Made by a program: the position numbers and the translations under genes. The notes under the pieces were generated by a model that was not told the DNA's origin, searched no databases, and saw only the letters and a list, made by a program, of their open reading frames with translations. From Georgenia sp. M64 (lineage in GTDB: Bacteria; Actinomycetota; Actinomycetes; Actinomycetales; Actinomycetaceae), in the NCBI RefSeq assembly GCF_038049925.1, contig NZ_CP145809.1:3196599-3260598 (forward strand): a stretch of 64,000 nt of DNA. The letters are read 5' to 3'. Shown piece by piece: positions 1,929 to 42,732 of the stretch. Numbering within the stretch: position 1 is the first letter of the stretch; each line of letters opens with the position of its first letter.

Positions 1929-1950
1929 GATTCACACGTTGAAGCGGAAC
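1929..1950. other. putative attachment site, left (attL of first element)
   Basis: These 22 bases are identical to 42711-42732, 40.8 kb away, in the same orientation. On the minus strand they read as codons for F-R-F-N-V followed by TGA, the usual last residues of YchF, the gene at the right border of the island. A pair of TTGCGGAC octamers follows at 2077, 127 bases further in. The same core-to-octamer distance is found at the second site (6401 to 6528), which argues for a real integrase recognition region. Confidence 0.6.
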
Positions 1951-2076
1951 GAAATCGCCCGATATTGGCAGGTCGCGATCGTCGTCGGTAGACGTCGAAA
2001 ATGCGCTCTGACCTGCACTGACGCGACTATCGGACCGTTGGGTCTGGTTGGTCGTCATCGGCCTCCGCCGGACTTC

Positions 2077-2095
2077 TTGCGGACTGTTTGCGGAC
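2077..2095. promoter_or_regulatory. paired TTGCGGAC octamers, putative integrase arm-binding site
   Basis: Two perfect TTGCGGAC octamers separated by TGT. Similar pairs with the same 3-base spacing lie at 6321-6339, 6528-6546 and 42652-42670. Directly repeated short sites flanking a core are typical of the arm-type sites bound by tyrosine integrases. That these are arm sites is inferred from the repeat geometry. Confidence 0.45.
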
Positions 2096-2268
2096 CGCTG
2101 GGCTCACGGTGCGGCCCTGGCGACGGCCGCTTCGTAGAGCGTCCGGGCGACCTGCTCGGCCTTCTCTGTGCCGAGGAACGAGGTTGCCCGGCGAGGTGCG
2201 CAAGCACGACGTCGAGGCGTGCCTCCACCAGGGCGACGACCGTCGCCTGTGGACGCGGGTGAGCGGGG

Positions 2269-2853
2269 TCAGCGCCACGGCACCTCCCCGATCACCGCGA
2301 CCGCCGGGCCGCTGCGGACGTTGTCCAGGAAGGCGGAGCGCTCGCCGAACTCCTCGGTGGTGAGGATCGTCGGGTTCACGGGTCGGTGCACCGCGGCCTC
2401 CGCCCGGGTGCACGCCTCGTCGACGGCGTCGATGTCGGGCTCACCGACCACCATGACGTCGATGTCGTGCGGTGCCGGGCCGGCATCCCCCAGCATCCGG
2501 GCCGCGAAGGAGCCGTAGAGGAACGCCGACTCGATCCGGTCGATGTGGGCGAGCTCCTCGGCCAGGACCACCACCGGTCCGGTCGCGACCATGAGGATCT
2601 CGCGAAGGGGGTTCACCAGCGGGCTCGCGTCGTTGGCGCGGAGCAGCCTCGTGCGGCCCACCTGCCGCTCGCTCAGGATGCCCGCCCCCAGCAGCCGCGC
2701 GACCTCGCGGTGCGCGGTCGGGTACGCCAGAGCGGCTTCTTTGGCGAGATCGGTGATGCTCAGCTCGTCGCCGGTGAGCAGCAGCGTCGAGAGCAGGCGC
2801 GCCTGGCCGTCCGACCGGAAGATCGGAGCCAGGAGCGGCGCCTCGGTTCTCAT
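2269..2853 (-). CDS. winged-helix/nucleotidyltransferase (MNT-type) fusion protein
   Basis: About 194 residues from ATG 2853. An N-terminal winged helix-turn-helix (LLLTGDELSITDLAKEAALAYPT..., wing KQVGRTRLL-like) is followed by a minimal nucleotidyltransferase domain with GSFAAR and the metal-binding D-I-D in HDIDVMVVG. MNT domains of this type are found in MntA-HepT toxin-antitoxin pairs and in DNA-binding fusions that may act as regulators. No HEPN partner is next to it, so its role is open. Upstream in-frame codons reach 2934, but the GGAGG there is 14 bases from ATG 2853, so the start is uncertain. A decayed copy lies at 6614-7015. Confidence 0.7.
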   Translation of the reverse strand: MRTEAPLLAPIFRSDGQARLLSTLLLTGDELSITDLAKEAALAYPTAHREVARLLGAGILSERQVGRTRLLRANDASPLVNPLREILMVATGPVVVLAEELAHIDRIESAFLYGSFAARMLGDAGPAPHDIDVMVVGEPDIDAVDEACTRAEAAVHRPVNPTILTTEEFGERSAFLDNVRSGPAVAVIGEVPWR

Positions 2854-3042
2854 ATAACTGAGGTCAACCTCCACGATGTCGACAGCCAACGCCGCGTTCC
2901 GGTCACCGCTAGATCGCGCATCGTTGCGCGCCACCGGCGCCTACGTGGCTTCCGGCCGTGGGCCGCCTGCACTCACCCGCCGATGCTTGCCCGCGTCGCC
3001 GTGACCCTGGACCCGGGAGACCTCGTTCGACCGGCGGCATTC

Positions 3043-3186
3043 ATGGGCAAGCTGATCTACGCCGCCAACACCTCGCTCGACGGCTACCTCGAGGCCGAGG
3101 CCGGCTCCTTCGACTGGTCCGTGCCCGAAGAGGAGGTGCACACGTTCTGGAACGAGCACGAACGGCACATCGGCACCTCGCTCGCA
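3043..3186 (+). pseudogene. truncated N-terminus of a DHFR-like (RibD C-terminal domain) reductase
   Basis: The first 47 or so codons closely match the intact gene at 16801 (MGKLIYAAN, SLDGYLE, GSFDWSVP, HIGTSL) and then identity stops abruptly at about 3186, where the next bases belong to another gene fragment on the opposite strand. The rest of the 190-residue protein is missing. The break looks like a deletion or recombination end point, not a point mutation. Confidence 0.7.
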
Positions 3187-3333
3187 CAACTGATAGAAAG
3201 ACTCATATCGCGTATCGGTCACCGCGCCAAGACTAGACAGCGCCTGCATGTCGAGCCCGTTGCCCACGAGCGCCAGGATGTTGTACTGATTCCGAGTGTT
3301 CTCGAACTTCTCTCGGAAATCCTCATACGCCAT
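3187..3333 (-). pseudogene. N-terminal fragment of an unidentified protein, possibly AbiH-like
   Basis: The minus strand from ATG 3333 reads MAYEDFREKF, then YNILALVGNGLDMQAL and TRYESFYQLC, and then runs into the antisense of the DHFR-like fragment. A short hydrophobic strand ending in V-G-N-G-L-D resembles the start of AbiH-type abortive-infection proteins (IIGNGFD...), but about 49 residues are too few for certainty. The downstream part was lost at the same junction that truncated the reductase at 3186. Lower GC than its neighbours suggests foreign origin. Confidence 0.4.
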
Positions 3334-3452
3334 ACCTGACCTACTCCCTCACGTGACCGAACTACCAGGCGCAACACAATCGATGCACCGAGACGCTGAT
3401 CCGCTGCGAACCCTCGAGGTTCTCATTGCCGGGTCCGATCGTCTCTGAACGC

Positions 3453-5927
3453 CTAGTCGAAGTACCTGGGAAAGCGCCTCCACAAATCGACGATCGACGC
3501 AAGCTCACCTAAAGCATCTAGCTCCTTTGCCCAAAGCTTCACCTGAGCGCAAACCTGGCCGACTGACAAATCTCGTGCTTCGCCTCGGGCAATGGCGACG
3601 CGAATGCACACGGTGAGGTTCTGCGCGTCCCGCTGCTCGCGCAACGCCGCCTCTGCCGACGTCTGCGCAGTCGCAAGGTCGCCCTCGGCGAGCGCAAGTT
3701 TGGCCTTCACGTTGTTGAGCACGCCAGCCGGCGCTGCAGGCGACTCCTCGACACCTGCGAGGGTCGCTTTAGCCTCGGCGATGAGCCCTTCATCGATCTG
3801 GATGCTTGCCAGCGACAGCGGAGCCTCCACGAACTGTGGATCAAGTTCAATGGTCCGCTGAAACTCCTGCATGGCGGTTTGCCGGTCGTTGAGTTGTAGC
3901 GCGATGCGCCCCAACCGGTAGCGGTAACGCGCATTCTTAGGTTCGCGAGCTACCGCACGACTCATGACTTCCTTGGCCTCGGGCAGAAGCCTCTGAGCTT
4001 CTAGTGCCTGCGAGTAGGTTGAGAGCGCGTACGGCGTATCGCCACCCATGTCGATGGCAGTCTTCGCAGCTGCGGCCGCGCCCGGCCAGTCCTGCAAACG
4101 GACCCTGGCTTGAGCAATGTCGGCATACAGCTGCGCCTTGTGCCGTCTAAAGGGCAACGCCTTCTCGTACCAAGAAATCGCATCGGACCACTTGCGGTCG
4201 ATCTGTTCGACTCGTCCTCGGTCTCGCAGAACCCCCGCATCCTCGGGGTAGTGCCGCACGAGCCTGTCGCCCAGCTCCCGCGCCTCGGGCATGCGCTTCA
4301 AGTTCGCCAGAGTCTTCATGCGCACACGGTTGGCGGGGAGGTCTACCTCGTCGTCCCCGGTCAGTGCCTCATCTAGATGCTCTAGGGCGAGTTCGTAGCG
4401 ACGTTCCTGGAAGAGCTCCAGGCCCGTCTCGTAAAGAGTTCCAATCAGGCCTTGCCGTAGCTCACGAGCTTCGTTCAGGCGACCCGAGAGTCCGAGCACC
4501 TTTACAGTGGACAACAACGCAGGGACATAGCCGTCGTCGGTGTCGGCAAGTGAGCGCAGACGAGTCAATAGGAGGTCCGCAAGCGCACTCGTCTGTGCTG
4601 CGTAGTCGGGACGCTTGCGGAATGAGCGCAAGTAGTAGTCGCGCAGCAGTGGATGAAGAGTGAGTGTCCCCGACGACCCCAGTCGGACCAGCGCATAGCT
4701 CGTTGCTTCGTCAACGGCACTCGTGTATTGGTCCGCTGCGAGGCCAAGCGCCTCCGCGAGATCGTGCCCGCTCAGGGGACCGTCCACCAATGAGAGGACT
4801 TCCAGCATTCGCCAGGTGTTGTCCTGAATGCGTGCCGGGTCGATGAGATCCGTCGCGATTTCGTGACGCTTGTCAAGCAATGACGCTATAGTCAGAGGAA
4901 GTTGGGGAGCGACCACCTCAAGAGCCAGGGGGTGACCATCAAGTTCTGCTGCCACCTCCCGAAGCTCGTCATCCGTTGCGTCGGCGCCATGCGACCTTAG
5001 TAACGGAATGGCGTGCTTCGGTTGGAGCCCGGGAAGGTAGAAGCTCTGGATCGCTTCTGCGAGTGACGAGTCGATGCGCGGCCGTCGCCTGGAGGTGAAG
5101 ATGAGCAGCCGATCGGTGTTCTGCTGCGCTTCTGTCACGGCGGAGATGACCTGTTCTGCAAGACGGCCAAGGGTCCCGTTCTCGGCCAGCCAGTGCTCAG
5201 CGTCTTGGAAGACGAACACTCCTCCCGCAGCAGTGAACTCACGCATCATCTGACTCGTGTGGGCAGTGATGTCCGCGAGTGACGCCCCGGCCTCGGCGGG
5301 ATCAAGCCGTAGTTCTCCGGCAACGAGAAGGTTGAGCTCCGGCTCGGCCACGCCTTCGGTCACGCGGATAGTCGCCACCGTGCCGGTTCCCGTCGTGATG
5401 CGGTGCAAAGCCTCGCGCGCAAGCGAGCGCTTGCCACTCCCTGGCACACCGCAGACCCACACGGCGGCGGTCGTTGACGAGTAGAGATGTTCCTCGATCG
5501 TCCCGATTTCCTCGTTGCGGTTGAAGAACCGCCTGCGTGGCACGGGAGCGGGCTCATTGCGACGCAGTGCATCGGCGATCTGCGGAGCTGACTTCGCGTC
5601 GCGTGCCTGCAAAAACGGGCGAAGGCGAAAGGGAACGGAGGTGTCATCTAGGCAGATAATGCGCAGAGCAATCGCCCGGTCCTCCAACCATCGGGTGAAC
5701 GCCAGCGTGATCTCGTACTCCACCCACCTCGACTGGGCCGATGCAGCAGACCACAGGAGTACGAAGTCGGTCGCTTCCTCGATCCCATCGCTGATCTCGT
5801 GCCAGAGGATCTGGCCAAGTTCGATCTCGAAGAGATCGACCCATGCGTCACCGTCCAGCAAGCTCTTGAGCTCGATGGCTAGAGGCTTATCTGGACCTGC
5901 GTGAGAGATGAAGAATCGTTTGGCCAT
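3453..5927 (-). CDS. TIR-STAND-TPR protein (NLR-like, probable antiphage sensor)
   Basis: 824 residues. Residues 1-130 form a TIR domain (FFISHAGPDK, later SRWVEYE with E72 at the place of the catalytic glutamate of NAD-cleaving TIRs). Residues 155-440 form a STAND NTPase with P-loop GVPGSGKR (160-167), a Walker B-like strand ending at D242, GHPLAL at 331-336 and a winged-helix H425 in LTLHPLLRDYY. The rest (480-780) is a run of TPR-like helical repeats, the expected sensor region. Known bacterial TIR-STAND proteins bind a phage product through the repeats, oligomerise and deplete NAD+. It stands alone, without effector partners. The function is inferred from architecture. Confidence 0.8.
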   Translation of the reverse strand: MAKRFFISHAGPDKPLAIELKSLLDGDAWVDLFEIELGQILWHEISDGIEEATDFVLLWSAASAQSRWVEYEITLAFTRWLEDRAIALRIICLDDTSVPFRLRPFLQARDAKSAPQIADALRRNEPAPVPRRRFFNRNEEIGTIEEHLYSSTTAAVWVCGVPGSGKRSLAREALHRITTGTGTVATIRVTEGVAEPELNLLVAGELRLDPAEAGASLADITAHTSQMMREFTAAGGVFVFQDAEHWLAENGTLGRLAEQVISAVTEAQQNTDRLLIFTSRRRPRIDSSLAEAIQSFYLPGLQPKHAIPLLRSHGADATDDELREVAAELDGHPLALEVVAPQLPLTIASLLDKRHEIATDLIDPARIQDNTWRMLEVLSLVDGPLSGHDLAEALGLAADQYTSAVDEATSYALVRLGSSGTLTLHPLLRDYYLRSFRKRPDYAAQTSALADLLLTRLRSLADTDDGYVPALLSTVKVLGLSGRLNEARELRQGLIGTLYETGLELFQERRYELALEHLDEALTGDDEVDLPANRVRMKTLANLKRMPEARELGDRLVRHYPEDAGVLRDRGRVEQIDRKWSDAISWYEKALPFRRHKAQLYADIAQARVRLQDWPGAAAAAKTAIDMGGDTPYALSTYSQALEAQRLLPEAKEVMSRAVAREPKNARYRYRLGRIALQLNDRQTAMQEFQRTIELDPQFVEAPLSLASIQIDEGLIAEAKATLAGVEESPAAPAGVLNNVKAKLALAEGDLATAQTSAEAALREQRDAQNLTVCIRVAIARGEARDLSVGQVCAQVKLWAKELDALGELASIVDLWRRFPRYFD

Positions 5928-6613
5928 GCGCAGCTTTCGTCTTCGGACCGATGTGCGAACCCTATATGTCTCGTGCCCGTGCGGCCAGCTCTTAAGTGCC
6001 TTTGAGTTCGCCCCACGCCGTCAGGGCCAATTGCCGGTCACGCTCGACCAGGAGGCCGACGGGCCGACGCGCACGATGAACCATCGCAGATTGGGCAAGC
6101 TACGTAGCCCCACTGGGAGACACCGTGATTTGGATGGTTCACTCCGGCGGGCCGTCATCATGAACGCCGGAAGGTCAGGGACGACCATCCCGTCGGCGAT
6201 AGCCAAGCAGCGTCATTCCACCGCCACGGAGCCGCGTCACGGGCGGATGATCAACTGGTTGCACGGGGTCTGGAGATTGGCCCTCCGAACGACCAGATCG
6301 AGCCCATCGCGTTAAGTTTCTTGCGAACTCTGTACGAACGGGGAGCGCCTACACTCCCCCTTGAAGTGGACAGCACGCGATGTCAGACGTGGAAGTGGAA
6401 CGATATCGGCCGTTTTCGGGTGGTTATGGTCATCGTCGGTAGACCCCGGCAAACATGCTCTGACCTGCGCAAACGCTACTTTCGGACCGTTGGGTCTGGT
6501 TGGTCGTCATCGGCCTCCGCCGGACTTCTGCGGGCTGTTTGCGGACCGCGGGGCGCATTGCGCGACCCTAGCGACGCGGCCTCGATGAGCGCCCGGGCGA
6601 GCAGCGGCGGGGT
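5928..6613. other. 686-bp gap without a gene, holding the middle attachment site
   Basis: No convincing coding frame on either strand. The first part is the upstream region of the TIR-STAND gene. From 6316 the sequence resembles the region before the right attachment site (arm pair at 6321-6339), then the core at 6380-6401, and from there to about 6600 it resembles 1951-2150, including a shared stretch around 6484-6526 that is identical to 2034-2076 over about 40 bases. Confidence 0.6.
6321..6546. other. putative middle attachment region (attR of element 1 joined to attL of element 2)
   Basis: The core at 6380-6401 matches the outer cores at 16 of the 21 bases I could align. An octamer pair (TTGCGAAC-TCT-GTACGAAC) ends at 6339, 43 bases before the conserved 18-base part of the core; at the right site the same gap is also 43. 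On the other side a second pair (CTGCGGGC-TGT-TTGCGGAC) starts at 6528, 127 bases after the core, as at the left site. Having both kinds of arm is what a junction of two tandem elements should look like. Confidence 0.55.
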
Positions 6614-7015
6614 CAGCGCCATGACAGCTCCCCGATCGCCGCGACCGCCGGGCCGCTGCGCACGTTGTCCAGGAAAGGCAGAGCGCGCCGAACTCCTCGG
6701 GGGTGAGGATCGTCGGGTTCACCTGCCGCTCGCTCAGGATGTCGGCCTCGATCAGGCGCCCGACCTCGCTGTGCGCAGTCGGTAGGCGAAGCCGGCTTCT
6801 TAGCCAGATCGGTGATGCTCAGCTCATCGCCGGTGAGCAACAGCGTGGAGAGCAGGCGGCCTGGCCGGCAGACCGGAGCCGGGAGCCGGGAGCCGGGAGC
6901 CGGGAGCCGGGAGCCGGGAGCCGGGAGCCGGGAGCCGGGAGCCGGGAGCCGGGAGCCGGGAGCCGGGAGCCGGGAGCCGGGAGCCGGGAGCCGGGAGCAG
7001 CGTCGCGGTCCTCAT
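6614..7015 (-). pseudogene. decayed copy of the HTH-nucleotidyltransferase gene
   Basis: Matches the intact gene at 2269-2853 at both ends. About 280 bases are deleted in the middle: the 3' part up to GGGTTCAC joins directly to CACCTGCCGCTCG, with CAC shared at the join. This removes the GSFAAR and DID motifs. There are further small deletions and a run of 7-bp repeats just after the start codon. No protein with the original function can be made. Confidence 0.75.
6881..6999. repeat. tandem repeat of GGGAGCC, 16 perfect copies
   Basis: Sixteen perfect copies of the 7-base unit GGGAGCC (6881-6992), preceded by CGGAGCC and followed by GGGAGCA. It lies just inside the 5' end of the decayed HTH-nucleotidyltransferase copy. 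The intact gene has GGAGCCAGGAGCGGC at the matching place, a natural seed for slippage. Because 7 is not a multiple of 3, each unit lost or gained shifts the frame. Confidence 0.95.
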
Positions 7016-7199: not shown

Positions 7200-9710
7200 T
7201 CACATGCCGATCATGTCGAACTGCTCGAAGGAGATGGTGATGCGGAAGTCACGCCTGGGGTACGGAAGCCTCACCAGCACCGACCTGAGCGACGGGGAGT
7301 AGTGCCACCCTGTCGTCGCCTCGTCGAAACGCGCCCGGTCCAGGTGATGCGGAAGGCGGGAGTCGTCCACCGAGACCCAGAACGGTGCCTTCCCCGGGTA
7401 GACCACGTCCACCAGCAGCTCTTCGATCGTGCTCTCGTAGTCCCCCTGGTGGGTGAAGCCGAGGACCGCGCGCTCTCCCGCCGTCATCGTGATCTCGGTA
7501 CGGAGGAAGGCGCCGTGCTCGTACGCACGGCTCACGCCGTCGTCCTCGTGGAGCACGAAATGGCCGTCGCGATCGGGAGCACAGACGAGGTGAAGACCCG
7601 TGACGTTCTCCCGCGCGAGGTTGTGCATCTGGTTCAGTGCCATCGGCACGATTCCGCCGCCACGGAGGAAGACCGGAACGGTGCCCAGATCGACCGGGAC
7701 CTCGATCGTCTGCCCGCCGGTGTACGGCTCACGCGTGCTGAAGTCGTAGAAGTGCTCGCCCTCCGGGAGGTAGACCTGCCGTGTCGAGGAACCGGGCGTC
7801 ACCACGTTCGCCACCAGAAGCGCGTCCCCCAGCATGAAGTCGACGCCCTCCTCGTCGCACCTCGGATCGTCCTGGAAGGCGCTGCACATAGGTTCCGCGA
7901 TCGGGAGGCCGGCCTCGTGCGCCCTCGCCATGAGGGAGTACAGGTACGGGAAGAGGCGGTAGCGGAGCCGGATCGCGTCCCGTACGTGGTGGGTGACCTC
8001 GTCGTACATCCACGGCTCGGTGACGGTGTTGTCGGTGTTGACCGAATGGATGGAGAACCGGGGCTGGAAGACACCGTTCTGGACCCACCTCACCAGGAGC
8101 TCGGGCTCCGGGGCCGGCCCGAAGAAGCCACCGATGTCGGCGCCCTGGTTGGCGACCCCGGACAGGCTCATCCCCAGCATCGTCGCGATGTTGTACGCCA
8201 GCGAGTCCCAGGAGGTGCTGTTGTCACCGGCCCAGGTCTGCGCGTACCGCTGGATCCCGGCGTGCCCGGACCGGCAGACGAGGTACGGACGGGCGTCCGG
8301 GGCAGACTCCGCGATCGCCTCCTGAGTGACGTGGCACATGAGGTTCGGCATCACCGCCTTGAGCCGGCCGATCGTGCCCCCGCCTCCGTCGAACGCGCAG
8401 CGGGCGTCCTTGTCGACCAGCCCGTCGTACTCGCAGTTGTCGTTCCACACCGAGGTGGTTCCCCGCTCGAGCACCGTGCGCGTGAGCCGCTTCTTCCAGC
8501 TGTCCCGCGCCTGCGGGTCGGTGAAGTCGACGAAGTGCCCCTTGCCGCCCCACCACGTGCCGAGGGCCGCGACGTCCGCGTCGCTGGCTCTGACGAAGAT
8601 GCCGTCATCCTTCATGTCGTCGAGGTCGGGGTGGACGGTGAGGACACCCGGTTTGACGTTCGGGGAGACGGTGATGCCGCGCGCGGACATGGCGGAGAAG
8701 AACCCGGACGGGTCGGGAAAGCGATCGTCGTTCCAGGTGAAGACACAGCGCTTCATCCCCGCGGCGGTCTCCTGCTGGGTGTACCCCGACGACAGCTGGA
8801 ACCCGTCGATGGGGATCTCGTTCCTCTCCGCGATCTCGACGAACTCGAGGATCGCCTTGTCGCAGTCGGCCGGGAGCTCGGAGTAGTACATGGAAGAGCC
8901 GAGGTACCCGAGCGCCGATTTCGGCAGCATGGCTGACCTGCCCGTCAACATGGTGTAGCGCTGGACGACGTCCCTGATCGCCGGACCGGCGATCAGGAAG
9001 AGGTCGATGTCGCCGCCGTCGGTGCGGTACCGGCTGTGCGGGGCCCAGTAGTTGCTCCTCTCGCGGCCCATGTCGAAATCGCAGTCGTACGTGTTGTGGT
9101 AGAAGTACCCGACGGCCTTCCGGGTGCCGGCGCCGAACTTGATGTAGAACGGGATGTGCTTGTACAGCGGGTCGGACTCCCTGGGGTCGTACCCCATGGC
9201 GTCCTTGGGACTCATCGTCACGAGCTTCTGGTACTTGTTGAGCGGACCTGTGGTCTCGCCGAAGCCGTAGAAGCGGTCGTCACGCGCGATCTCGCTCGAG
9301 TGGATGCGCCGTCGGTTGGAGTCCTCCAGGTAGCCGATGTCGACGACGTCCGCGTGCAGGAGCGTGCCCTCGACGTCGTAGACGCAGATTCGGAACGGGT
9401 CCTTCTCGACCTCGATCCGGAGCTTGCGCCCCGTCACCACGGCCTTGGCCGGGCCGTCGGCCAGCTCCACCGCCGCCGCGCCGATCCGCGTGCGCTCGTC
9501 GCCCATGAACGCGTCCAGCCGGTCCGGCCAAGCGGTCGTCACCAGGGTGTACGACTCCTCCGTGAAGCCCGGATCGAACCCGGCCCGGACCCGGACGATG
9601 TCGTCGGTCATCAGGAGGATCCTGATCTCGACGCCGTCCGTCCGGACGGAGATCCAGTCGCCTGACCGCTCGACCCGCTCGACTCTTCTGCACAGACGCA
9701 CGGTGCTCAC
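7200..9710 (-). CDS. glycoside hydrolase family 31 (alpha-glucosidase/alpha-xylosidase type)
   Basis: 836 residues, normal for GH31. These enzymes release alpha-linked sugars from non-reducing ends by a retaining mechanism. An N-terminal beta-sandwich (GFGETTG region) is followed by the barrel; the nucleophile is D424 in SVWNDNCE and the acid/base is D496 in QTWAGDN. C-terminal beta domains follow (VFLRGGGIVP). There is no signal peptide, so it acts in the cytoplasm on imported sugar. It is divergent from an ABC sugar importer at 10002, which probably supplies its substrate. Whether it prefers glucosides, xylosides or another alpha-linked sugar cannot be read from the sequence. Confidence 0.9.
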   Translation of the reverse strand: MSTVRLCRRVERVERSGDWISVRTDGVEIRILLMTDDIVRVRAGFDPGFTEESYTLVTTAWPDRLDAFMGDERTRIGAAAVELADGPAKAVVTGRKLRIEVEKDPFRICVYDVEGTLLHADVVDIGYLEDSNRRRIHSSEIARDDRFYGFGETTGPLNKYQKLVTMSPKDAMGYDPRESDPLYKHIPFYIKFGAGTRKAVGYFYHNTYDCDFDMGRERSNYWAPHSRYRTDGGDIDLFLIAGPAIRDVVQRYTMLTGRSAMLPKSALGYLGSSMYYSELPADCDKAILEFVEIAERNEIPIDGFQLSSGYTQQETAAGMKRCVFTWNDDRFPDPSGFFSAMSARGITVSPNVKPGVLTVHPDLDDMKDDGIFVRASDADVAALGTWWGGKGHFVDFTDPQARDSWKKRLTRTVLERGTTSVWNDNCEYDGLVDKDARCAFDGGGGTIGRLKAVMPNLMCHVTQEAIAESAPDARPYLVCRSGHAGIQRYAQTWAGDNSTSWDSLAYNIATMLGMSLSGVANQGADIGGFFGPAPEPELLVRWVQNGVFQPRFSIHSVNTDNTVTEPWMYDEVTHHVRDAIRLRYRLFPYLYSLMARAHEAGLPIAEPMCSAFQDDPRCDEEGVDFMLGDALLVANVVTPGSSTRQVYLPEGEHFYDFSTREPYTGGQTIEVPVDLGTVPVFLRGGGIVPMALNQMHNLARENVTGLHLVCAPDRDGHFVLHEDDGVSRAYEHGAFLRTEITMTAGERAVLGFTHQGDYESTIEELLVDVVYPGKAPFWVSVDDSRLPHHLDRARFDEATTGWHYSPSLRSVLVRLPYPRRDFRITISFEQFDMIGM

Positions 9711-9831
9711 CTCTCAGCGGTTCTCCCGTCCGCTGCCGGACGGCTGCGCCACCGATTCACCCATGCCTGCAGGCCGGTGGCAATGGCTCCCTCGCATTTC
9801 CCTCGCTGTGCCGGAGCTGCCGTTCGTGACG

Positions 9832-9848
9832 TTCGAGGCACCGTCGAA
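9832..9848. promoter_or_regulatory. inverted repeat between the divergent GH31 and ABC genes
   Basis: TTCGA and TCGAA arms with a 7-base spacer, in the 291-bp divergent region (9711-10001). A TATGAA at 9884-9889 could be a -10 for the transporter operon. No regulator gene of LacI or ROK type lies in the neighbourhood, so a repressor would have to be encoded elsewhere. Weak evidence only. Confidence 0.3.
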
Positions 9849-10001
9849 GCCTGCTCTCCCCGATCTGCGTGTGCCCGATTTGTTATGAATTGTTCACCGC
9901 CCACGGAGTGCCATCCCGCCCTAACCGGGGCATGCTCGGTCATGTGCCTCGACGACGAGGCGCACGCGCGCTCCGAGCGCCACGAGTTCAAGGAGGATCC
10001 C

Positions 10002-15974: not shown

Positions 15975-16205
15975 ATGAAACTCAGCGTCAGCCTGTCGGA
16001 CGAGGATGTGGCAATCCTCGACGAGTACGCCCGTACCGCCGGCCTGCCCTCGAGGTCGGCCGCATTGCACCATGCTGTGCGGATGCTGCGCCTGCCCGAC
16101 CTTGAGCAGGACTACCAAGCCGCGTGGCAGGAGTGGGAAGCCTCAGGCGACCAAGCGGCGTGGACAGGGACCGCGGCCGACGGGATCGCTGATGCTGCGC
16201 AGTGA
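15975..16205 (+). CDS. ribbon-helix-helix antitoxin (MazE-like)
   Basis: 76 residues. The N-terminus [21 protein letters not shown] followed by [13 protein letters not shown] is a standard ribbon-helix-helix DNA-binding domain; the acidic, Trp-rich tail ([17 protein letters not shown]) is the usual toxin-binding part. ATG 15975 is chosen because it starts exactly at the domain. It overlaps the toxin gene by 14 bases, as is common in mazEF operons of actinobacteria. Confidence 0.85.
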
Positions 16206-18906: not shown

Positions 18907-18908
18907 GA

Positions 18909-33713: not shown

Positions 33714-34172
33714 CGCCACACCTTCCGACGTTACCGCCTCGATCAAGACATCATAGTCGAACGGGCGTTCGATAGATGCTGCAATGAGGGTCAAGGTTCC
33801 GCGTCCGTTTGTCCGGCCAGTGGGTCACACGCTTACTCATCGGCATGAGCGTGCGCCGCGCCACCCAACGCCATCCCGGTTAGGACCACCACCAGCGGGA
33901 CGCTCGCCGTGACATCTTCACCGACAGAGCTGTTCACCTCCCGCGTCTGCCAACCTCGCCCGACTCCCCTGCGTGATCTCCAGTTCTCACTGGAAACCGT
34001 TGACTCCCCACGGCCCCAAGAATCTGCTCCCGCGGATTAGCTTCCGGCCGTCCACACACCCTCCCAACCAAGCGGCACGCATGCTACGAAGGACGTAGGT
34101 GGGCCGCCCGGGATCGGGCGGCCCACGACGCATTTCTAGCGGTCCGTTGGTTGTCGACGGACGTGCGCGGAG
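33714..34172. other. 459-bp gap upstream of the relaxase; candidate oriT
   Basis: No gene on either strand. The last 90 bases hold three inverted repeats in a row: CTACG/CGTAG at 34084-34098, GTGGGCCGCCCG/CGGGCGGCCCAC with a 4-base loop at 34099-34126, and GTCCGT/ACGGAC at 34142-34162. MobF relaxases nick an oriT near their own gene beside such repeats. The large hairpin could instead be a terminator, but no gene ends just before it. Confidence 0.45.
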
Positions 34173-36761
34173 GTGGTGGTCCGGGTGCACGGCGGGGTCA
34201 AGTTCTACCGCGGCGCGGCGAAGGCCGCCCGGGCCTACGTCGAGCGCGATCGGTCCCGGGCTGATGACTACTACCTCGGCGAGGGAACCGGCGTGGCTGA
34301 GCGACTCACCGCGACGCCGGACAGCGTCGACCACGCGGGTCCGATGGACGGCGAGACGTACGAGCAGTGGGTCGCCGGGATCGACATCGACAGCGGCCGC
34401 CCGAAGGGCTGGGTGCGAAACGACGCGAACGCGCTGCGGTTCGTCGAGGTGACCGTCAACGGCCCCAAGACCTGGTCGCTGGCGGCCGCGCTGCATCCGG
34501 ACGTTTCGGCTGCGCTGGACGAAGCCCAGGACAGAGCCGCCGCCGAGATCGTCGGCTGGGTCGCCCAGCACGCGACGACTCGAGTCGGCCCGCGTGGTCG
34601 CCAGGTGCAGGTCCCGGTCGAGCGGATCGAGGCCGCCGTCATCCGGCACTACACCTCCCGTGCCGGCGACCCGCACCGCCACCTTCACCTCCAAATCAAC
34701 GCCCGCGTCTACGCGGCCGGCGCCTGGCGCGGAATTCACTCCGTCGGAATCCGCGACAGCATCGAGGCGATCAACGGCATCGGCCACGCCGCCGTCGCGA
34801 CCGACCCACAGTTCAGGGCGGTGCTGGCGGCGCACGGGCTGGCGCTCGATACCGAGACGAACGAGATTCGCCAGCTGGTCCCGTACGTCGGGGCATTCAG
34901 CGCCCGCACCGCGCAGATCCGGCGGAACGTGGACCGCTTCGAAGCCGCGTGGCGCAGCGCGCACCGTGGCGAGGAGCCCGGCCCCAAGCTCCGCGAGGCG
35001 TGGGACCGCCGGGCGTGGGCGGAAGCCCGCCCCGACAAGGTCGTCCCGAAGGACGGCCGGGAGCTCGTGGACCGCTGGAACGGCGAGCTGCGCGAGCTCG
35101 GCTACCGCGACCCGACCGGACCCTTCCTGCTCACAGGAACGCGCCCCGGCTGGATCGACCGCGACGCCGCAGCCGACCTCGTCGTCGCCATCCTCGGGGC
35201 GAAGCGGTCCGTATGGAACACCGGCGACATCCGCGGGACCACCGAGGTCCTCCTCGCACGCACTGCTCTTCTCGCCGACCGTGCCGCGCGGGCCGAGCTC
35301 GCCGAGGACATCACCGCCCGAGCCACCAGCCGGTGCGTCCCGTTGCTCGACCGGGCCGATGTGCCCGAGCACATTCGGTCGCTCAGCTCACCGCACGTGC
35401 TCGAGGTCGAGGCCGACGTCGTCGCCCGTATCGCGCGCCGGGCGGTGCAGCCAGCCCGCACGCTCCGCCTGGACGGCCGCCGCCCGGTCGGGATCGACCC
35501 GGCCCAAGCCGCAGTGGCCGGTGCTCTGGCGGGCGACGGACCGCTTGTAGTGGTCGAGGGCGCCGCTGGCGCCGGGAAGACCACCACGCTTCGGTTCACT
35601 CGGGAGCTGCTGTCCATGCGGGGGCATCGGCTCATCGTCGTGACCCCGACGTTGAAGGCCGCCGAGGTCGCCGCCGCCGAGACCGGCGCCGACGGCCACT
35701 CCGCCGCCTGGCTGATCCACCAACACGGATGGCGCTGGGACGCCGACGGCCATTGGGCCCGCCAGACGAACCGGACCCCCTATCCCGGCGCCCGGCTCCG
35801 GCCCGGCGACCTGCTGCTCGTGGACGAGGCCGGGATGGTCGACCAGGACACCGCCCGGGCACTGCTCACCATCGCCGACGAGGCCGGCGCACGGGTGGCG
35901 TTCGTCGGCGACCGACACCAGCTCCCCGCCGTCGGGCGCGGTGGCGTCCTCGACCACGCGGTGACCTGGGCGCACCCGACCGCCGTCGTCAGCTTGGAGA
36001 CGGTGCACCGGTTCACCGACCCCAACTACGCCGCATTGAGCCTGCGGATGCGCAACGGCGACGACGCCGGCGAAGTGTTCGATGCCCTCCACCGCCGCGG
36101 TCACGTCGTGATCCACGCGTCCGACGTCGAACGGACCGCTGTCCTCGCCGACGCCGGCGCCAGAGGGGATCTCGTCATCGCCGACACCCGCGACCAGGTC
36201 ACGGACCTCAACGCGGCCATCCGTCACCAGCGCCGCCACGAGACGCGCGCGGGGATCACCACTGCCCGCGGCGACCGGATCGCGGTCGGGGACCGAGTCG
36301 CGACCCGACGCAACGATCCCGACCTGCAGGTCGCCAACCGCCAGACCTGGACGGTCACCAGAATCGGCAAGGACGGCAGCCTCGTCCTCCACGGCCGGGG
36401 ACGGGACCGACAGATCCCACCCGACTACGCGACACGGTTCATCGAGCTCGCGTACGCCACCACCGTCCACGGCGCCCAGGGCAGCACTGTCGCGAACGCC
36501 CACGTCGCCATCGGGGAACACACCGGCGCCGCGTCGGCGTACGTCGCCATGACCCGTGGCGGGAAGTCGAACGTCGCCCACCTCGTCGCCGACAACGTCG
36601 ACGACGCTCGCAGCCAGTGGGTCGAGATCTTCGGTCGCGACCGCGCCGACCTCGGACCCGCGGTGGCGCGCCGCCGGGCACGCGACGCCATCGACCGCTA
36701 CGGCCCGCAGCGCCGGCGTCGGCCGGTCGCGGCGGCACGCGACCGCAGCCTCAGGCTCTGA
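34173..36761 (+). CDS. MobF-family relaxase/helicase (TrwC/TraA type)
   Basis: 862 residues. The N-terminal TrwC relaxase domain has a Tyr near the start (KFYRG, plus Y22 in RAYVE) and the metal triad H168-H170-H172 in HRHLHLQIN. From about 430 a RecD/TraI-type helicase follows, with a P-loop GAAGAGKTTT near 462-470, DEAGMVDQD (motif II) and TVHGAQGSTVANAHV plus YVAMTRG near the end. It should nick the element at oriT and unwind it for transfer. Start GTG 34173 or 34176; GGAGG overlaps them. At 862 residues it is compact for the family. No type IV coupling protein or secretion gene is in the window. Confidence 0.9.
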   Translation: MVVRVHGGVKFYRGAAKAARAYVERDRSRADDYYLGEGTGVAERLTATPDSVDHAGPMDGETYEQWVAGIDIDSGRPKGWVRNDANALRFVEVTVNGPKTWSLAAALHPDVSAALDEAQDRAAAEIVGWVAQHATTRVGPRGRQVQVPVERIEAAVIRHYTSRAGDPHRHLHLQINARVYAAGAWRGIHSVGIRDSIEAINGIGHAAVATDPQFRAVLAAHGLALDTETNEIRQLVPYVGAFSARTAQIRRNVDRFEAAWRSAHRGEEPGPKLREAWDRRAWAEARPDKVVPKDGRELVDRWNGELRELGYRDPTGPFLLTGTRPGWIDRDAAADLVVAILGAKRSVWNTGDIRGTTEVLLARTALLADRAARAELAEDITARATSRCVPLLDRADVPEHIRSLSSPHVLEVEADVVARIARRAVQPARTLRLDGRRPVGIDPAQAAVAGALAGDGPLVVVEGAAGAGKTTTLRFTRELLSMRGHRLIVVTPTLKAAEVAAAETGADGHSAAWLIHQHGWRWDADGHWARQTNRTPYPGARLRPGDLLLVDEAGMVDQDTARALLTIADEAGARVAFVGDRHQLPAVGRGGVLDHAVTWAHPTAVVSLETVHRFTDPNYAALSLRMRNGDDAGEVFDALHRRGHVVIHASDVERTAVLADAGARGDLVIADTRDQVTDLNAAIRHQRRHETRAGITTARGDRIAVGDRVATRRNDPDLQVANRQTWTVTRIGKDGSLVLHGRGRDRQIPPDYATRFIELAYATTVHGAQGSTVANAHVAIGEHTGAASAYVAMTRGGKSNVAHLVADNVDDARSQWVEIFGRDRADLGPAVARRRARDAIDRYGPQRRRRPVAAARDRSLRL

Positions 36762-37380: not shown

Positions 37381-37386
37381 ACCTCA

Positions 37387-37435: not shown

Positions 37436-37492
37436 TCGGAGACGCCGACCCCGCGACCCAGCCGGGCCGTGACTCACCGAGGAGCAATGACC

Positions 37493-37729
37493 ATGACCGC
37501 ATCACCGAACCCCCTCGAGAACCGTCCCATCAAGAACCCGGGCGACGAGATGCTCACCCTCCAGGAGGCCTGTGCCTTCCTCCGCATCCCCGAGGGCACT
37601 CTGCGCTACTGGCGCCACCTCGGCGCCGGACCGCATAGCTTCAAGATCGGCCGCCACGTCCGCTACTGGCGCGCCGACCTCATCCGTTGGCTCACCGAGC
37701 AGGCCAGCCGTCCACAGAACCACCGCTGA
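37493..37729 (+). CDS. excisionase-like helix-turn-helix protein
   Basis: 78 residues from ATG 37493 (GAGGAG ends 8 bases before). DEMLTLQEACAFLRIPEGTLRYWRHLGAGPHSFKIGRHVRYWRADLIRWLTEQ is the standard MerR-like DNA-binding fold of Xis/AlpA-type proteins (helix_turn_helix_17). It sits 58 bases before the integrase gene in the same direction, the usual arrangement for recombination directionality factors. Confidence 0.85.
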   Translation: MTASPNPLENRPIKNPGDEMLTLQEACAFLRIPEGTLRYWRHLGAGPHSFKIGRHVRYWRADLIRWLTEQASRPQNHR

Positions 37730-37787
37730 CGCCGCTTGTCCTCCGATCTCGGAGCAACCATGGAGGCATCCCGGAAGGAGCATCGTC

Positions 37788-38903
37788 ATGGCGGGGAGCA
37801 TCGCCAAACGGACCAACGGCAAGTGGCGGGCGCGGTACCGCGACGAAACCGGCAAGGAGCACTCGCGGCACTTCGACCGCAAGGTTGACGCCCAGTTGTG
37901 GCTGGATCAGGTCACCTCGGCGGTGGTCACCGGTACGTACGCCGATCCCCGGGCCGGACGGATCACATTCGCCGCCTTCTTTGGGGAGTGGTCGGCCCGC
38001 CAGGTCTGGGCACCCGGCACCGTGCTCGCGATGTCGCTGGCGGCCAGAACGCCGTTCGCGGGGAAGCCGATGAAGGAGGTCCGCCGCTCCGACGTCGAGG
38101 CCTGGATCAAGCAGATGAACGCTGCCGGCCTCGCCCCAGGGACGATCAAGACGCGGTACGTCAACGTCAGGTCGGTGTTCCGCGCCGCCGTCAAGGACAG
38201 GGTGATCGGATCCGACCCGACCGACGGCGTGCGCCTCCCCCGGCGCCGTCGGGCGGACGTCGCCATGTCGATCCCCACCCCGGAGGAGGTGGGACAGCTG
38301 ATGGCCGCGGCCGACGACGGGTTTCAGCCATTCATCGCCCTCTGCGCGTTCGCCGGTCTGCGGCTGGGCGAGGCCGCCGGGGTCCAGCTTGGCGACGTGG
38401 ACTTCCTGCGCAAGACGCTCAAGGTCTCCCGCCAAGTCCAGCGCCTCAATGGCGGGGAAATCGACGTCCGAGCCCCGAAGTATGGCTCCGAACGCGTCGT
38501 CTACCTAGCCGACAGTCTCGTCAACGTGCTCGCCAAGCACGTCGCCAACTACGGCACCACAGGCAAGAGTCGCTGGCTTTTCGCCGGCGAGGAGGAGGGC
38601 CCGCCGCACCAGAACACCGTGGGCTACTGGTGGCGAAGGACGCTGCGTGACGCCGGTCTGTCCGGGATCAAGCTCCACGACCTGCGGCACTTCTACGCCT
38701 CCGGCCTGATCGCGGCCGGGTGCGACGTCGTGACCGTTCAGCGCTCGCTCGGCCACTCGAAGGCGACGACGACTCTCAACACCTACGCCCATCTCTGGCC
38801 GACGGCCGAGGATCGTACGAGGAAGGCAGCGGAGTCAATCATGTCCGCGTCGCTCGGCGAGCCAGATGCGCCCAAAGCCGAGTTGGCGAACATGGGCGAG
38901 TGA
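37788..38903 (+). CDS. tyrosine recombinase/integrase
   Basis: 371 residues from ATG 37788 (GGAAGGAG 7 bases before). An N-terminal arm-binding domain (AKRTNGKWRARYRDETGKEHSRHF), a SAM-like core-binding domain (residues 60-150) and the catalytic domain with R192 in AGLRLGE, H297-x-x-R300 in LHDLRHF, H323 in LGHSKATT and the nucleophile Y333 in NTYAHL. All required residues are present. It is the only integrase in the window and the best candidate for acting on the core sites at 1929, 6380 and 42711, although it lies 3.8 kb from the nearest one. Confidence 0.93.
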   Translation: MAGSIAKRTNGKWRARYRDETGKEHSRHFDRKVDAQLWLDQVTSAVVTGTYADPRAGRITFAAFFGEWSARQVWAPGTVLAMSLAARTPFAGKPMKEVRRSDVEAWIKQMNAAGLAPGTIKTRYVNVRSVFRAAVKDRVIGSDPTDGVRLPRRRRADVAMSIPTPEEVGQLMAAADDGFQPFIALCAFAGLRLGEAAGVQLGDVDFLRKTLKVSRQVQRLNGGEIDVRAPKYGSERVVYLADSLVNVLAKHVANYGTTGKSRWLFAGEEEGPPHQNTVGYWWRRTLRDAGLSGIKLHDLRHFYASGLIAAGCDVVTVQRSLGHSKATTTLNTYAHLWPTAEDRTRKAAESIMSASLGEPDAPKAELANMGE

Positions 38904-39003
38904 CGCCGCGCCCCGCTACCCAGCCGATTTGAGCGCATCCCGGGATGGCCCAGGTAGTCGGTCCTGCGAGGAGTCTGTCGGACCTACCCCCGATACTGGG
39001 AGC

Positions 39004-42000
39004 GTGTGGATTCGCAACGTCGACGTTTCGTCCGAACTAGTTGCCGCCGCGCGGGCCGGCCGCCTCGTGCTTTTTGTCGGAGCGGGTGCTTCTCGGGACG
39101 AACCGGCTGGCCTGCCCGACTTCGGCTCCCTCATCGCGGAAATCGGACGCGTGGTTGACAGCCCGCCCAGCGACGATGACAAACGACACCCAGACGTGTA
39201 CCTCGGACGCTTGGCCGACAAGGGGATTGACGTTCATCGACTGGTGGCGAACTCCATCAACAAGGCCGGTGCCCGGCCGAACGCGCTCCATCAATCGATA
39301 GTGAGACTGGCCAGCGTGCATCCGGCACCACGCATCGTCACGACCAACTACGACGTCCACCTCACCACGGCGGCACTTGATGAAGGACTGGCACTTCCCG
39401 TCTACGAAGCGCCGGCCCTTCCCGTCGGTGACGACTTCCAAGGAATCGTCCACCTCCACGGCTCGCTTGACCAGGAGCCACGTCGACTCGTAGTGACGGA
39501 CAAGGATTTCGGCCGGGCATATCTACTCGAGGCCTGGGCCGCGCGCTTCTTGGAGCGAATGTTCTCTGCTTTCACCGTCCTCTTCATCGGATACAGCCAC
39601 GGCGACGTCGTCATGCAGTACCTGGCACGGTCGCTTGGACCGTCGGGCAAGAGGTTCGTGTGCACGAGTGACGGGGACGACCCGACCTGGCGACAGTACG
39701 GACTGACGCCCGTCCCCTACATCGCGGTAGACGGCGACCACGCCGCCTTACCGACGTTCGTGGCACGCTGGGCTGAACTATCGTCGATGGGCCAGACGCA
39801 GCATCGTGCATTAACTGCCACCTTGGTCGCCGCGGGCCCCCCAACGATCCCCGAGGAGGTCTCCTACCTCGATGAAGTGCTCGAGCACCCGGAACGGATC
39901 AGATACTTCGTTGAGAAGGCACGAGGTCGGGACTGGTTAGCGTGGGTCGCGGAGCGGCCGGCCTTTCAATCGCTGTTTGACCGCGACAGGGCAGGGACAG
40001 ATCCGGCGCGGACACTCATGTCGTGGGTCGCTGACCACTGCATGCTGGACGAGTCAACTTCGCCCCTCGCCCTAGAGGCAATGCGGGACAAGCCGTGGCC
40101 CCCGGAAACGCGGCAAACCGTCGTACACCGTCTCCTCGCTTATGACGGTGAGATGGCCTCCTGGCTGTCGCCATGGCTGCTCCTCGCCGTACAGAACGCG
40201 CCAGGTTCCCGAGAAGACCTGCTCGACATGCTCATTGCGAGCGCCGACTGGCGTGTCAACGTAGGCCTCGCCATCACGTTGCTAGAGGATCGCACGCGAC
40301 CCGTTCTCAAGCCAGCGATCAGTTTCGTGGAGTCCGAGATTGCCCGCTTCGAGGTCGACCTACCTGGTGACGAGTACTGGCTATCCGAAGCATGGTCTAA
40401 GGTATTCACCCCAGTACTCGACAAGCATCTTGCGGCGATTACGGCGTCGGTGGATGAGCAGATTGCCCGGATATACCGCGCGTTTCATAGCCTCGGCTCC
40501 GATTTCGACCCGCTCAGCTTCCGTCGGTCGGCCATCGAGCCACACGAGCAGGATTCCTTTCAGCAGCCGATCGATGTGCTGATCAATGCTGCGCGAGACT
40601 GCATCGAGTACGCCCTCGACCATGACATCCACCTTGCCGACCGCTATATCGAGTCGTGGACCACCCGCGGCGAGGCAATTTTCCGCCGGTTGGCCGTTCA
40701 CGGTTGGCGGATAAGGGCCGATCGGACAGTTGACGAGAAGCTCCGCTGGCTGGAAGCACAGAACTGGCTGTGGGAACTTCCCCTACAGCATGAGGTATAC
40801 CTCCTTCTGCACGAAGCGCTTCCCACGGCGAGCGACGAGATCGTGCAGGCATTCCTAGATGCCGCCAAGGTCGGCCCCCCCTCAGATGGTGACGATGATG
40901 TCTCGCCGTACCGCTCCTACAACCTTCTCGCCTGGCTTGCCCGCTCTGCGCCGGGCCGACCCCTGGTCTCCCAGGCATTCGAAGACTCGCAGTCCGCGCA
41001 TCCCGAATACGCACCCCGGAAGCATCCGGACCTGAACAGCTACATAACCTCAGGCGTTGTCGAGGATGCATCGCCGTACTCAGCCGACGAACTGCACGCA
41101 CGAATTGCCGAAGACCCAGGAGCTGCGATCGCGGGGCTACGTGACTTCCAGTTCGATTCGTTCGCATTCACAGGACCAACCTGGACAGGTGTGTTGCGGT
41201 CGCTACAGGCTTGCGTGTCCGCCTACCCCGACGACGGGCTGACGCTGGTGACCGTGCTGCAGCCTGACGACGGTGATATTCGGAACTCGATCATCCACGG
41301 GTGGAATACCGCCGACCTCGACGAGCAGGCGGTGGGCAACGTCCTCTCCGCAATCGACACCTGGGACCGTGATGAGATCCGACACGCTGCCGCCAAGATG
41401 CTCGCCAACGGTGGCAGCCAGACGAATCCCACCCCGTGGCACCGCTACGCGCGAGCACGGGACACCGCAAGGAACCTTTGGCTGACCGAGGCGGAACCCG
41501 GCGCCATCGACGCTCGCGGAGACCTCCTCATGGAAGCGATCAACCATCCCGCCGGAGACCTCGCCCAGTTCTGGTCCAAGGTTGCGCAGTGGGAGTGGAC
41601 TCTGGCTGGCGACACGTGGGACGGCTTGCCGGACGAGCTAACCAGCGAACTCGATCGGATGGTCTCCGCTGACGACCGAAACGGTCTCCTCGCAAGCACC
41701 TTCCTCGCATCGCAACTGCACTTCTACTTCGCCGCCGACCAAGAGTGGGCCAAGTCCCGCCTGATACCACTCTTCGACTGGGGCGGCGACCAGGAGCGGG
41801 CTCGCGGAGCTTGGCAGGCGTTTCTCACCTGGGGCCGCCCTAACGACGGGCTACTCGCCGCAGGACTCCTGGACGCCTATGTGGAGACCTGTAGTCACGT
41901 TGATGCGCTCGAACCACGAATCGCGCAGGAGCTCAGCACCCAACTGGCGTCGATCTCCCTGCGTGCCGGAGAGAACCCGCTGGGGTGGCTTCCACGCTTC

Positions 42001-42489
42001 GTGCTCGCCGCACCCGAGGGACTCCGCGTGTCGTGGGCGGAACAAGTCGGCCGGTTCCTCGAAGAACTCGCTCCCGACGAGGCAGGTACGCAGTGGGAGC
42101 GGTGGATCAGCGGCTACTGGTCGGGTCGGCTCCAGTCAACGCCATTGCCGCTCACCAGCGCCGAAGCATCGGCGATGGCACGCTGGCTAATCGGCCTACC
42201 CACCGTGCGGGAACAGGCGGTGACGCTTCTGGTCCAGACGCCGGCCGGACTCCCCGAACGTGGGCGGCTCCTACATCGCATCCGCGACCTCGACCTCGCC
42301 GCCGATGCGGAAAGGTGGGCGACTTCGATCACGCATCTACTTCGAGGCACCACGGGGCCAGCCTGGAGCCTCGGCCACAACCTCAAGGCCATCGTGGAGC
42401 AACTTCGAGCGGCGGATCCAACGCCGGACCTCTCCGAGTTGATCGACGAGGCGTTGAGGCTCGGTGTAACAGATGCGGCGGAGTGGTAG
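39004..42489 (+). CDS. SIR2-DUF4020 protein (DSR1-type antiphage sirtuin)
   Basis: 1161 residues from GTG 39004 (GGGAG just before). The N-terminal 290 residues are a SIR2 domain: FVGAGASRD at 25-32, TTNYD with N115, HLHGS with catalytic-type H152 and FIGYSHGD. The long remaining helical part carries the DUF4020 region. SIR2-DUF4020 proteins are known as defence-associated sirtuins (DSR1) that deplete NAD+ on infection. Here the gene is alone, between the integrase and the right attachment site, a typical cargo position. GC is lower than in the housekeeping genes. Function is inferred from architecture. Confidence 0.82.
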   Translation: MWIRNVDVSSELVAAARAGRLVLFVGAGASRDEPAGLPDFGSLIAEIGRVVDSPPSDDDKRHPDVYLGRLADKGIDVHRLVANSINKAGARPNALHQSIVRLASVHPAPRIVTTNYDVHLTTAALDEGLALPVYEAPALPVGDDFQGIVHLHGSLDQEPRRLVVTDKDFGRAYLLEAWAARFLERMFSAFTVLFIGYSHGDVVMQYLARSLGPSGKRFVCTSDGDDPTWRQYGLTPVPYIAVDGDHAALPTFVARWAELSSMGQTQHRALTATLVAAGPPTIPEEVSYLDEVLEHPERIRYFVEKARGRDWLAWVAERPAFQSLFDRDRAGTDPARTLMSWVADHCMLDESTSPLALEAMRDKPWPPETRQTVVHRLLAYDGEMASWLSPWLLLAVQNAPGSREDLLDMLIASADWRVNVGLAITLLEDRTRPVLKPAISFVESEIARFEVDLPGDEYWLSEAWSKVFTPVLDKHLAAITASVDEQIARIYRAFHSLGSDFDPLSFRRSAIEPHEQDSFQQPIDVLINAARDCIEYALDHDIHLADRYIESWTTRGEAIFRRLAVHGWRIRADRTVDEKLRWLEAQNWLWELPLQHEVYLLLHEALPTASDEIVQAFLDAAKVGPPSDGDDDVSPYRSYNLLAWLARSAPGRPLVSQAFEDSQSAHPEYAPRKHPDLNSYITSGVVEDASPYSADELHARIAEDPGAAIAGLRDFQFDSFAFTGPTWTGVLRSLQACVSAYPDDGLTLVTVLQPDDGDIRNSIIHGWNTADLDEQAVGNVLSAIDTWDRDEIRHAAAKMLANGGSQTNPTPWHRYARARDTARNLWLTEAEPGAIDARGDLLMEAINHPAGDLAQFWSKVAQWEWTLAGDTWDGLPDELTSELDRMVSADDRNGLLASTFLASQLHFYFAADQEWAKSRLIPLFDWGGDQERARGAWQAFLTWGRPNDGLLAAGLLDAYVETCSHVDALEPRIAQELSTQLASISLRAGENPLGWLPRFVLAAPEGLRVSWAEQVGRFLEELAPDEAGTQWERWISGYWSGRLQSTPLPLTSAEASAMARWLIGLPTVREQAVTLLVQTPAGLPERGRLLHRIRDLDLAADAERWATSITHLLRGTTGPAWSLGHNLKAIVEQLRAADPTPDLSELIDEALRLGVTDAAEW

Positions 42490-42651
42490 CCAGGATCTGG
42501 GGCACGACACTCGCTAGTAGGCCGCGGCGAATCCCGGGTGCGATCGGCCACGTGTCCACTCCCCGCCGCCAAAGCTCACGTTCAAGTCGTGCGATCCACG
42601 ATCGGTCGGAGTTCTGAAAACCACACGATCGGGGGCGTCCCGCTAAAGCTC

Positions 42652-42732
42652 TTGCGGACTGTGTGCGGACTGGGAGCGTCCCGCACCGCTCTGACCTGCG
42701 CAAACGCGCCGATTCACACGTTGAAGCGGAAC
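42652..42732. other. putative attachment site, right (attR of second element)
   Basis: The core 42711-42732 is identical to 1929-1950. An octamer pair TTGCGGAC-TGT-GTGCGGAC ends at 42670, 43 bases before the conserved 18-base part of the core, the same distance as at the middle site. The core continues into GTTGAAG-CGGAA-CTTCAAC (42720-42738), a perfect hairpin that is broken at the left site, as expected if this end keeps the original chromosomal half. Confidence 0.6.

Follow-up and report, generated by a model that had tools for sequence, protein, structure and literature searches.

What kind of mobile DNA has settled beside ychF in Georgenia sp. M64, and does it move as one unit or as several? 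The question is raised by a stretch of 64,000 nucleotides (contig NZ_CP145809.1, positions 3,196,599 to 3,260,598; hereafter the window), in which a short core sequence recurs with arm-type repeats at fixed distances. The locus is very probably an accretion array at the 3′ end of ychF, in which a small unit, U1 (1929-6401), is followed by a larger unit, U2 (6380-42732), that encodes its own integrase and relaxase.

The repeat geometry from which the first-pass annotation had proposed two integrative elements was recovered almost throughout. As it claimed, the 22-mer cores at 1929-1950 (left core of U1 and of the U1+U2 composite, a copy of the ychF 3′ end) and 42711-42732 (right core of U2 and of the composite) are identical, the diverged core between U1 and U2 at 6380-6401 matches in 16 of 22 bases, and all three lie in one orientation on the plus strand. 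Within the window the 22-mer occurs at up to three mismatches only at 1929 and 42711, and 100 shuffled sequences gave no match. Arm pairs at the same tolerance number four, all on the plus strand: 2077-2095 (left pair of U1), 6321-6339 (right pair of U1, decayed, three mismatches), 6528-6546 (left pair of U2, slightly decayed) and 42652-42670 (right pair of U2). Chance would give 0.24, and none of 100 shuffles reached four, in agreement with the view that such geometry at four places is hard to get by chance. The gap from core end to arm start is indeed 127 bases at both left ends, and at 2077, an exact pattern match, the arm lies 142 bases from the A of the core's ACGTTG. The gap is likewise equal at both right ends, although it measures 40 bases from arm end to core start and not 43 as first reported; in the distances used below, both right pairs stand 65 bases before their core.

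The genome-wide search (4,183,773 bases) used a degenerate 18-base arm pattern that was written after the four sites were known. It matches exactly at three places, every one in this locus, and with one mismatch at three more, one of which is the fourth site of the locus; the four matches with two mismatches all lie outside. At zero or one mismatch the pattern thus finds the four locus sites and two others, and the reversed pattern gave three matches in total at up to two mismatches. The octamer pairs are therefore not scattered all over the genome, the outcome named in advance as counter-evidence. An 18-base core matched at eight places genome-wide at up to three mismatches (reversed control, three), the locus accounting for the two exact matches and for one of the six with three mismatches.

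On the minus strand, the core reads as the tail of a coding sequence, FRFNV-stop, and corresponds to the 3′ end of ychF. The gene itself lies at 43756-44841 on the minus strand (TIGR00092, 424 bits), and its 3′ end, the target site at 43756, faces the array. In 22 of 23 right ends elsewhere (20 of 21 distinct ones), the core runs on for 16 bases as ychF sequence. An empty site was found in G001, one of eight same-genus relatives, where only 33 bp separate the end of the left-gene match from the start of the ychF match. The first-pass annotation had expected such a site, but with borders at 1928 and 42733; the shared chromosome stops instead near window coordinate -515, and the target on the right is the ychF 3′ end, 1 kb further on. 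The variable segment, from -515 to ychF, is accordingly about 44 kb and larger than 1929-42732. No relative was found to carry the same genes collinearly without the cores. A tRNA or tmRNA as target was considered and rejected, as none lies in the window and no Rfam match was obtained. The last ychF codons in the window (43756-43777) are three bases off the core and still encode the FRFNV end.

The genes of U2 that bear on mobility are grouped near its right end. A MobF (TrwC) relaxase-helicase (34185-36761, plus strand) exceeds the cut-offs of both its NCBIfam MobF and its Pfam TrwC match (NF041492, 120.6 bits against a cut-off of 100; TrwC, 181 bits). It is followed on the same strand by a small excisionase-like helix-turn-helix (HTH) protein (37487-37729, matches below cut-off) and by a tyrosine integrase (37788-38903; PF00589, 78 bits), in which the R, HxxR, H and Y motifs were recognized by eye. 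U2 therefore has its own integrase and its own relaxase (iMOB type), with no recognized mating-pair-formation genes, and it has flanking direct repeats, the left one diverged, at a defined site that is empty in a relative. No match to VirB4, VirD4 or FtsK was obtained in the scanned U2 proteins with Pfam and NCBIfam, a negative limited by partial coverage of the small open reading frames (ORFs) and by several ORFs of 340-513 aa without any family match. The same three families were also absent from eight ORFs of the relaxase-bearing elements in the relatives G002 and G007. Among the scanned proteins there was no type IV secretion system (T4SS) that would mark an integrative and conjugative element (ICE), although ORFs without family match remain, and no Pfam match to a TraB/FtsK translocase or replication initiator as in actinomycete ICEs (AICEs). 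On its gene content, U2 is an integrative mobilizable element (IME)-like element.

U1 consists of a left-end module and a TIR-TPR protein, with nothing recognized for integration or transfer. The module includes an HTH-nucleotidyltransferase-like protein (2269-2934, minus strand; weak Pfam and NCBIfam matches, below cut-off), copies of which are 88-89% identical in G006 and G008, and the cargo is the defence-like TIR-TPR protein (3453-5927, minus strand; AAA match below cut-off). Since U1 keeps both attL and attR, the right end decayed and of doubtful function, and lacks integrase and transfer genes, it is better called a decayed element resembling a cis-mobilizable element (CIME). The proposal that ends of one integrase specificity are stacked at a single site is supported, with an integrase found only in the right-hand element.

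The outer and inner ends of the pair differ in preservation. A right-end weight matrix made from 21 distinct sites in other sequences was run over both strands of a 102-kb region. It placed 42718 first with 133.7 bits, inside the range of its training sites (105.8-139.4 bits; the scores of family members are those of the training sites themselves), and 6387 second with 21.7 bits, and no other place passed -50. Scored by their arms alone, the two right ends rank 1 and 2 among 203,824 positions. At the left ends, joint core and arm mismatches amount to 0 at 1936, 3 at 6387 and 11 at the next place. The outer ends thus look undamaged, whereas both inner ones look decayed, and for this reason the 40.8-kb pair of U1 and U2 may now move as one.

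The surroundings of ychF were compared in nine relatives, eight of the same genus and G010. In four of them (G002, G005, G006 and G007), left and right ends of the same family are joined straight to ychF. The integrase is 87-88% identical in G002, G005 (partial) and G007, and the relaxase 84-85% in G002 and G007, in both of which the U2 DNA from 33.98 to 38.9 kb, carrying the relaxase, excisionase-like and integrase genes, is 86-87% identical. Integrase matches in G006 reach only about 25%, and no close integrase was found in the ychF stretch examined of G004 or G008. A genome scan across GTDB extended the comparison, with 80 of 150 confirmed integrase loci kept, all 80 of them placed in the tree described below. 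The geometry was studied in the 20 close loci (L084-L102 and L116; integrase identity at least 76%), which come from Georgenia, Nocardioides, Pimelobacter, Janibacter, Aeromicrobium, Terrabacter, Nostocoides and others. In 13 of these 20, ychF lies downstream on the opposite strand. When arms were sought anywhere at up to four mismatches, a right-end pair was present in 14 of the 20, at a distance of exactly 65 in all 14; the matrix scan tested arms only at -65, so the constant spacing rests on this search. The stretch examined showed no right-end pair in the other six, L084 and L096 among them; for L084 a right end joined to ychF (G245:C21) lies just outside it. Left ends in other genomes show 142 or 143 bases in five independent cases, with arms sought only 138-147 bases away; nine rows were obtained, of which three came from a spacing-fixed pattern and two were one contig. 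Of 396 genomes of the order, that of the window included, 8 carry the right-end signature and 6 the left-end signature (reversed controls, none), and seven of the eight right-end genomes run on into ychF, the window being the exception.

Accessory genes recur with the integrase as well. An excisionase-like match is present in all 20 close loci (30 residues only in L097) and a relaxase match in 15, the best pieces covering 439 residues in L102, 496 in L099, 716 in L093 and 37 at the contig edge in L086. In Nocardioides terrae (L087) and Janibacter melonis (L089), the integrase is 88% and 90% identical to that of the window, whereas YchF is only 70% and 71% identical, which we take as horizontal movement. 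Between ychF and its intact integrase, G245 has a second, partial one of the family (L179 4889-5451, a 90% identical piece), and probably has an array too. Two units, in G287 and G006, with 9.9 kb and 38 kb between their cores, have intact ends but no close integrase or relaxase, and CIME-like states may be common at the ychF site. In a plasmid collection, 900 records carried integrase relatives, all below 60% identity. Separate short copies of the ychF C-terminus (20-28 residues) occur in L063 (G008; 12435-12494), L067 (G010; 8039-8098) and L093 (17948-18052), and in G008 and G010 a whole ychF is present elsewhere in the stretch. In Aeromicrobium sp. Leaf350 (L099), an intact right end at 16399 is followed by non-ychF DNA, possibly another array.

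In the mechanism that we propose, recombination by the U2-family tyrosine integrase would take place between an attP core and the final codons of ychF. The element would carry its own copy of these codons, so that ychF would stay intact and a core copy would be left at the far end. U1 would be an older relative without integrase or relaxase, in which the left end is kept and the right end has decayed, and the stacking of U1 and U2 would produce three cores in one orientation. The U2 integrase presumably acts on these sites. The intact outer pair at 1929 and 42711 would represent the ends now used, through which U1 and U2 could leave as one circle, and transfer would probably depend on the mating apparatus of a helper.

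The history of the pair can be read in more than one way. We give close to an even chance to two separate arrivals, in which U1 integrated complete and decayed in this lineage, U2 later entered its ychF-proximal end, and the two do not travel together. This course matches the three-step model of the IME review (PMC5704250), and U1 keeps both ends at the right spacing; however, that model makes the internal core last, and it is this core that has diverged furthest, the outermost left one being perfect. Outer cores identical over 22 bases at intact ends, accompanied by internal ends decayed on both sides, speak for a composite, in which U1 and U2 fused, the internal site decayed, and the pair arrived and may leave as one via its outer ends. 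CIME-ICE tandems are reported to transfer jointly (PMC5704250). Identity of the outer cores is nevertheless also expected from their shared origin in a conserved coding sequence, and a second copy of the composite was not found, though not specifically sought; we regard this history as a serious possibility at somewhat under even chances. The contrast between outer and inner ends is compatible with both histories, and no firm choice between them is made here. The earlier view that the elements entered one after the other is thus retained as far as stacking is concerned, while the order of entry is not directly readable and joint movement is about as likely as two separate arrivals.

A local origin of U1, by duplication of the left end of U2 followed by insertion of the TIR-TPR gene, would account for the approximately 1 kb of the U1 left end that is homologous to that of U2. 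Yet U1 has a right end of its own, at the right spacing and second-ranked in the region, and the two left ends differ, that of U2 being closer to G006 (93%) than that of U1 (85%), so that we consider such a duplication very improbable.

Several observations weigh against the reading of the locus as an accretion array at ychF. Excision is a prediction from sequence. The right core of U2 at 42711 is separated from ychF by 1023 bp (a segment termed U3), this reading does not account for about 2.4 kb between the chromosome and the first core (-515 to 1928), and the window's own ychF ends in a sequence three bases away from the 15-base core, with no arm site where one would be expected. Among relatives, the spacing is not universal, as weaker arm-like sequences lie 63 (G004) and 60 (G008) bases before the ychF core, and the integrase match in G005 lacks the first 153 query residues. 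The occupied sites of G006 and G287, having no close integrase or relaxase, do not prove that this integrase inserted them. Five of the 20 close loci have no relaxase match, among them L092, which is cut by a contig end. In L096, the ychF gene downstream ends in a sequence other than the core; in L093, the core is followed only by a short C-terminal piece of ychF (28 residues); and of the other right ends, only L099 is clearly without ychF after the core.

The integrase phylogeny places the ychF-associated elements beside a group with another target. In a tree of 81 integrases, the window falls in a clade of 21 (support 100/99), which, with midpoint rooting, is sister to a clade of six (98/95 for the pair). 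In that tree, six ychF-clade rows carry the label "other" because ychF or its core was unseen in the stretch or, in L099, not adjacent, and L093 and L096 are labelled ychF despite the short ychF piece of the former and the non-core end of the latter. The clade of six has a different core, which in L103-L107 coincides with the end of genes that share a C-terminus; in the two loci tested, L103 and L106, the gene is menB (TIGR01929, above cut-off). Place and spacing of the arms are unchanged in L103-L106, and L107 shows a diverged second arm half and a match displaced by one base. A change of integrase going with a change of target has been reported for AICEs (PMC9513070), and fixed arms with swapped cores look like a new aspect. 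Tentatively, and with rather more doubt than confidence, we propose a new family of MobF-type IMEs with fixed arms and spacing and a swapped core, the clades of which would target the last codons of ychF or menB, the window being a fused composite with a fossil internal site and working outer ends. The integrases of a more distant Streptomyces clade, about 38% identical, also have ychF downstream on the opposite strand in 12 loci (L128, L129, L133, L138, L140, L144, L148, L149, L151, L154, L155 and L160), about 170 bp away in 11 of them.

Two elements, as first counted, is an underestimate, because further remnants or units lie on both sides. The empty site lacks the segment from -515 to 1928, of which the part 314-1923 shares pieces with U2 at 16.6-23 kb (75-91% identity); the segment is probably the remnant of another element with no clear ends. 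A further right end to the left of 1929 was sought and rejected, the score being weak and the arms ranking 1445 of 203,824. On the other side, U3 (42733-43755) is also absent from the empty site and carries kinase-like and HigB-like toxin genes without family arm sites. It was rejected as a family member, since a left arm is missing near +142 (11 mismatches) and a right arm ahead of ychF. Part of U3 (the HigB-like region), together with about 370 bp of the 3′ part of ychF, recurs in G015:C1:1147393-1148089, about 4 kb away from the actual ychF gene; this hints at a different sort of element that uses the ychF end.

Cargo with many defence genes makes up the remainder of U2. A block at 7200-15917 encodes a GH31 glycosidase (minus strand), a sugar ABC transporter and a 928-aa protein without family match (both plus strand), and sits between pieces of the left-end module that in G006 are at most 2.8 kb apart. 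Its codon use is chromosome-like, but the block is absent beside ychF in the nine relatives, and an interpretation of U2 as ordinary chromosome was therefore rejected; genus-wide, the one long match to the block is the GH31 gene (75%, on another contig of G001), the others being short. A GC-rich 7-mer tandem array occupies 6864-7012, between a left-end gene remnant and the GH31 gene. Further to the right on the plus strand are a ribbon-helix-helix protein (15975-16205; PF01402) and the RibD_C protein of the left-end module (16801-17382). IS3- and IS481-type transposase genes between inverted repeats (20270-22857) form a nest that breaks a second copy (19819-22963) of the polyketide-cyclase-like gene found at 1275-1733, left of the array. 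A GapS1-like protein (23315-24829, plus strand; weak, below cut-off), a PIN-domain protein (25489-26589, plus strand) and a pair of TcmP (plus strand) and DUF5131 (minus strand) genes (31876-33794), a PADLOC candidate (PDC-M30), precede the relaxase, and a SIR2-DUF4020 Dsr1-like defence protein (38866-42489, plus strand; below the Dsr1 equivalog cut-off) follows the integrase.

Compared with known systems, U2 shares with IMEs of the iMOB type an integrase, an excisionase-like protein, a relaxase, direct repeats at a conserved gene's 3′ end and the lack of a recognized T4SS, and differs in its MobF relaxase and its target in ychF. The canonical IMEs known by 2017 included none with a MobF or MobH relaxase and only one in Actinobacteria, according to the review (PMC5704250). 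For the literature from 2018 on, a limited search gave no IME with a MobF relaxase in the accessible text of PMC11389934. Similar to CIME-ICE/IME arrays (PMC5704250), the locus has an integrase-less, att-ended unit beside an integrase-bearing one with cores in the same orientation. Accretion of CIME and IME at a gene 3′ end is already known, and the same review notes for such tandems that composite movement by the outer ends cannot be excluded; the present locus differs in being actinobacterial, in its decayed internal site and intact-looking outer ends, and in its ychF target. With the AICEs of Streptomyces and relatives, it has in common the actinobacterial host, a tyrosine integrase, accretion at one site and a change of target with a change of integrase (PMC9513070), and differs in that no TraB/FtsK or AICE replication protein was recognized in the locus. 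AICEs with tyrosine integrases reside mostly in tRNA genes (PMC3218068); a single tRNA site occupied by several AICEs, and 14 elements in protein-coding genes, are reported in a study whose main text does not mention ychF (PMC9513070). Pneumococcal prophages and satellite prophages also have an attB near ychF (PMC8637289, PMC10383233), but this site is intergenic and upstream of the gene, and the elements are phages of another phylum. A limited, mostly open-access literature, taken without supplements, yielded no actinobacterial element at the 3′ end of ychF or menB. Within these limited searches, the ychF site, the MobF relaxase in an IME and the related menB-targeting clade appear new. The last codons of ychF, being conserved, would give a mobile carrier of defence genes a defined target across several actinobacterial families, and a MobF relaxase would be placed in an integrated mobilizable element where the 2017 review knew none. 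Related integrase clades with the same arms and different cores would offer a natural system for studying target change in tyrosine integrases, and the state of the ends, intact outside and decayed inside, allows a test of whether an accretion can freeze into a new composite.

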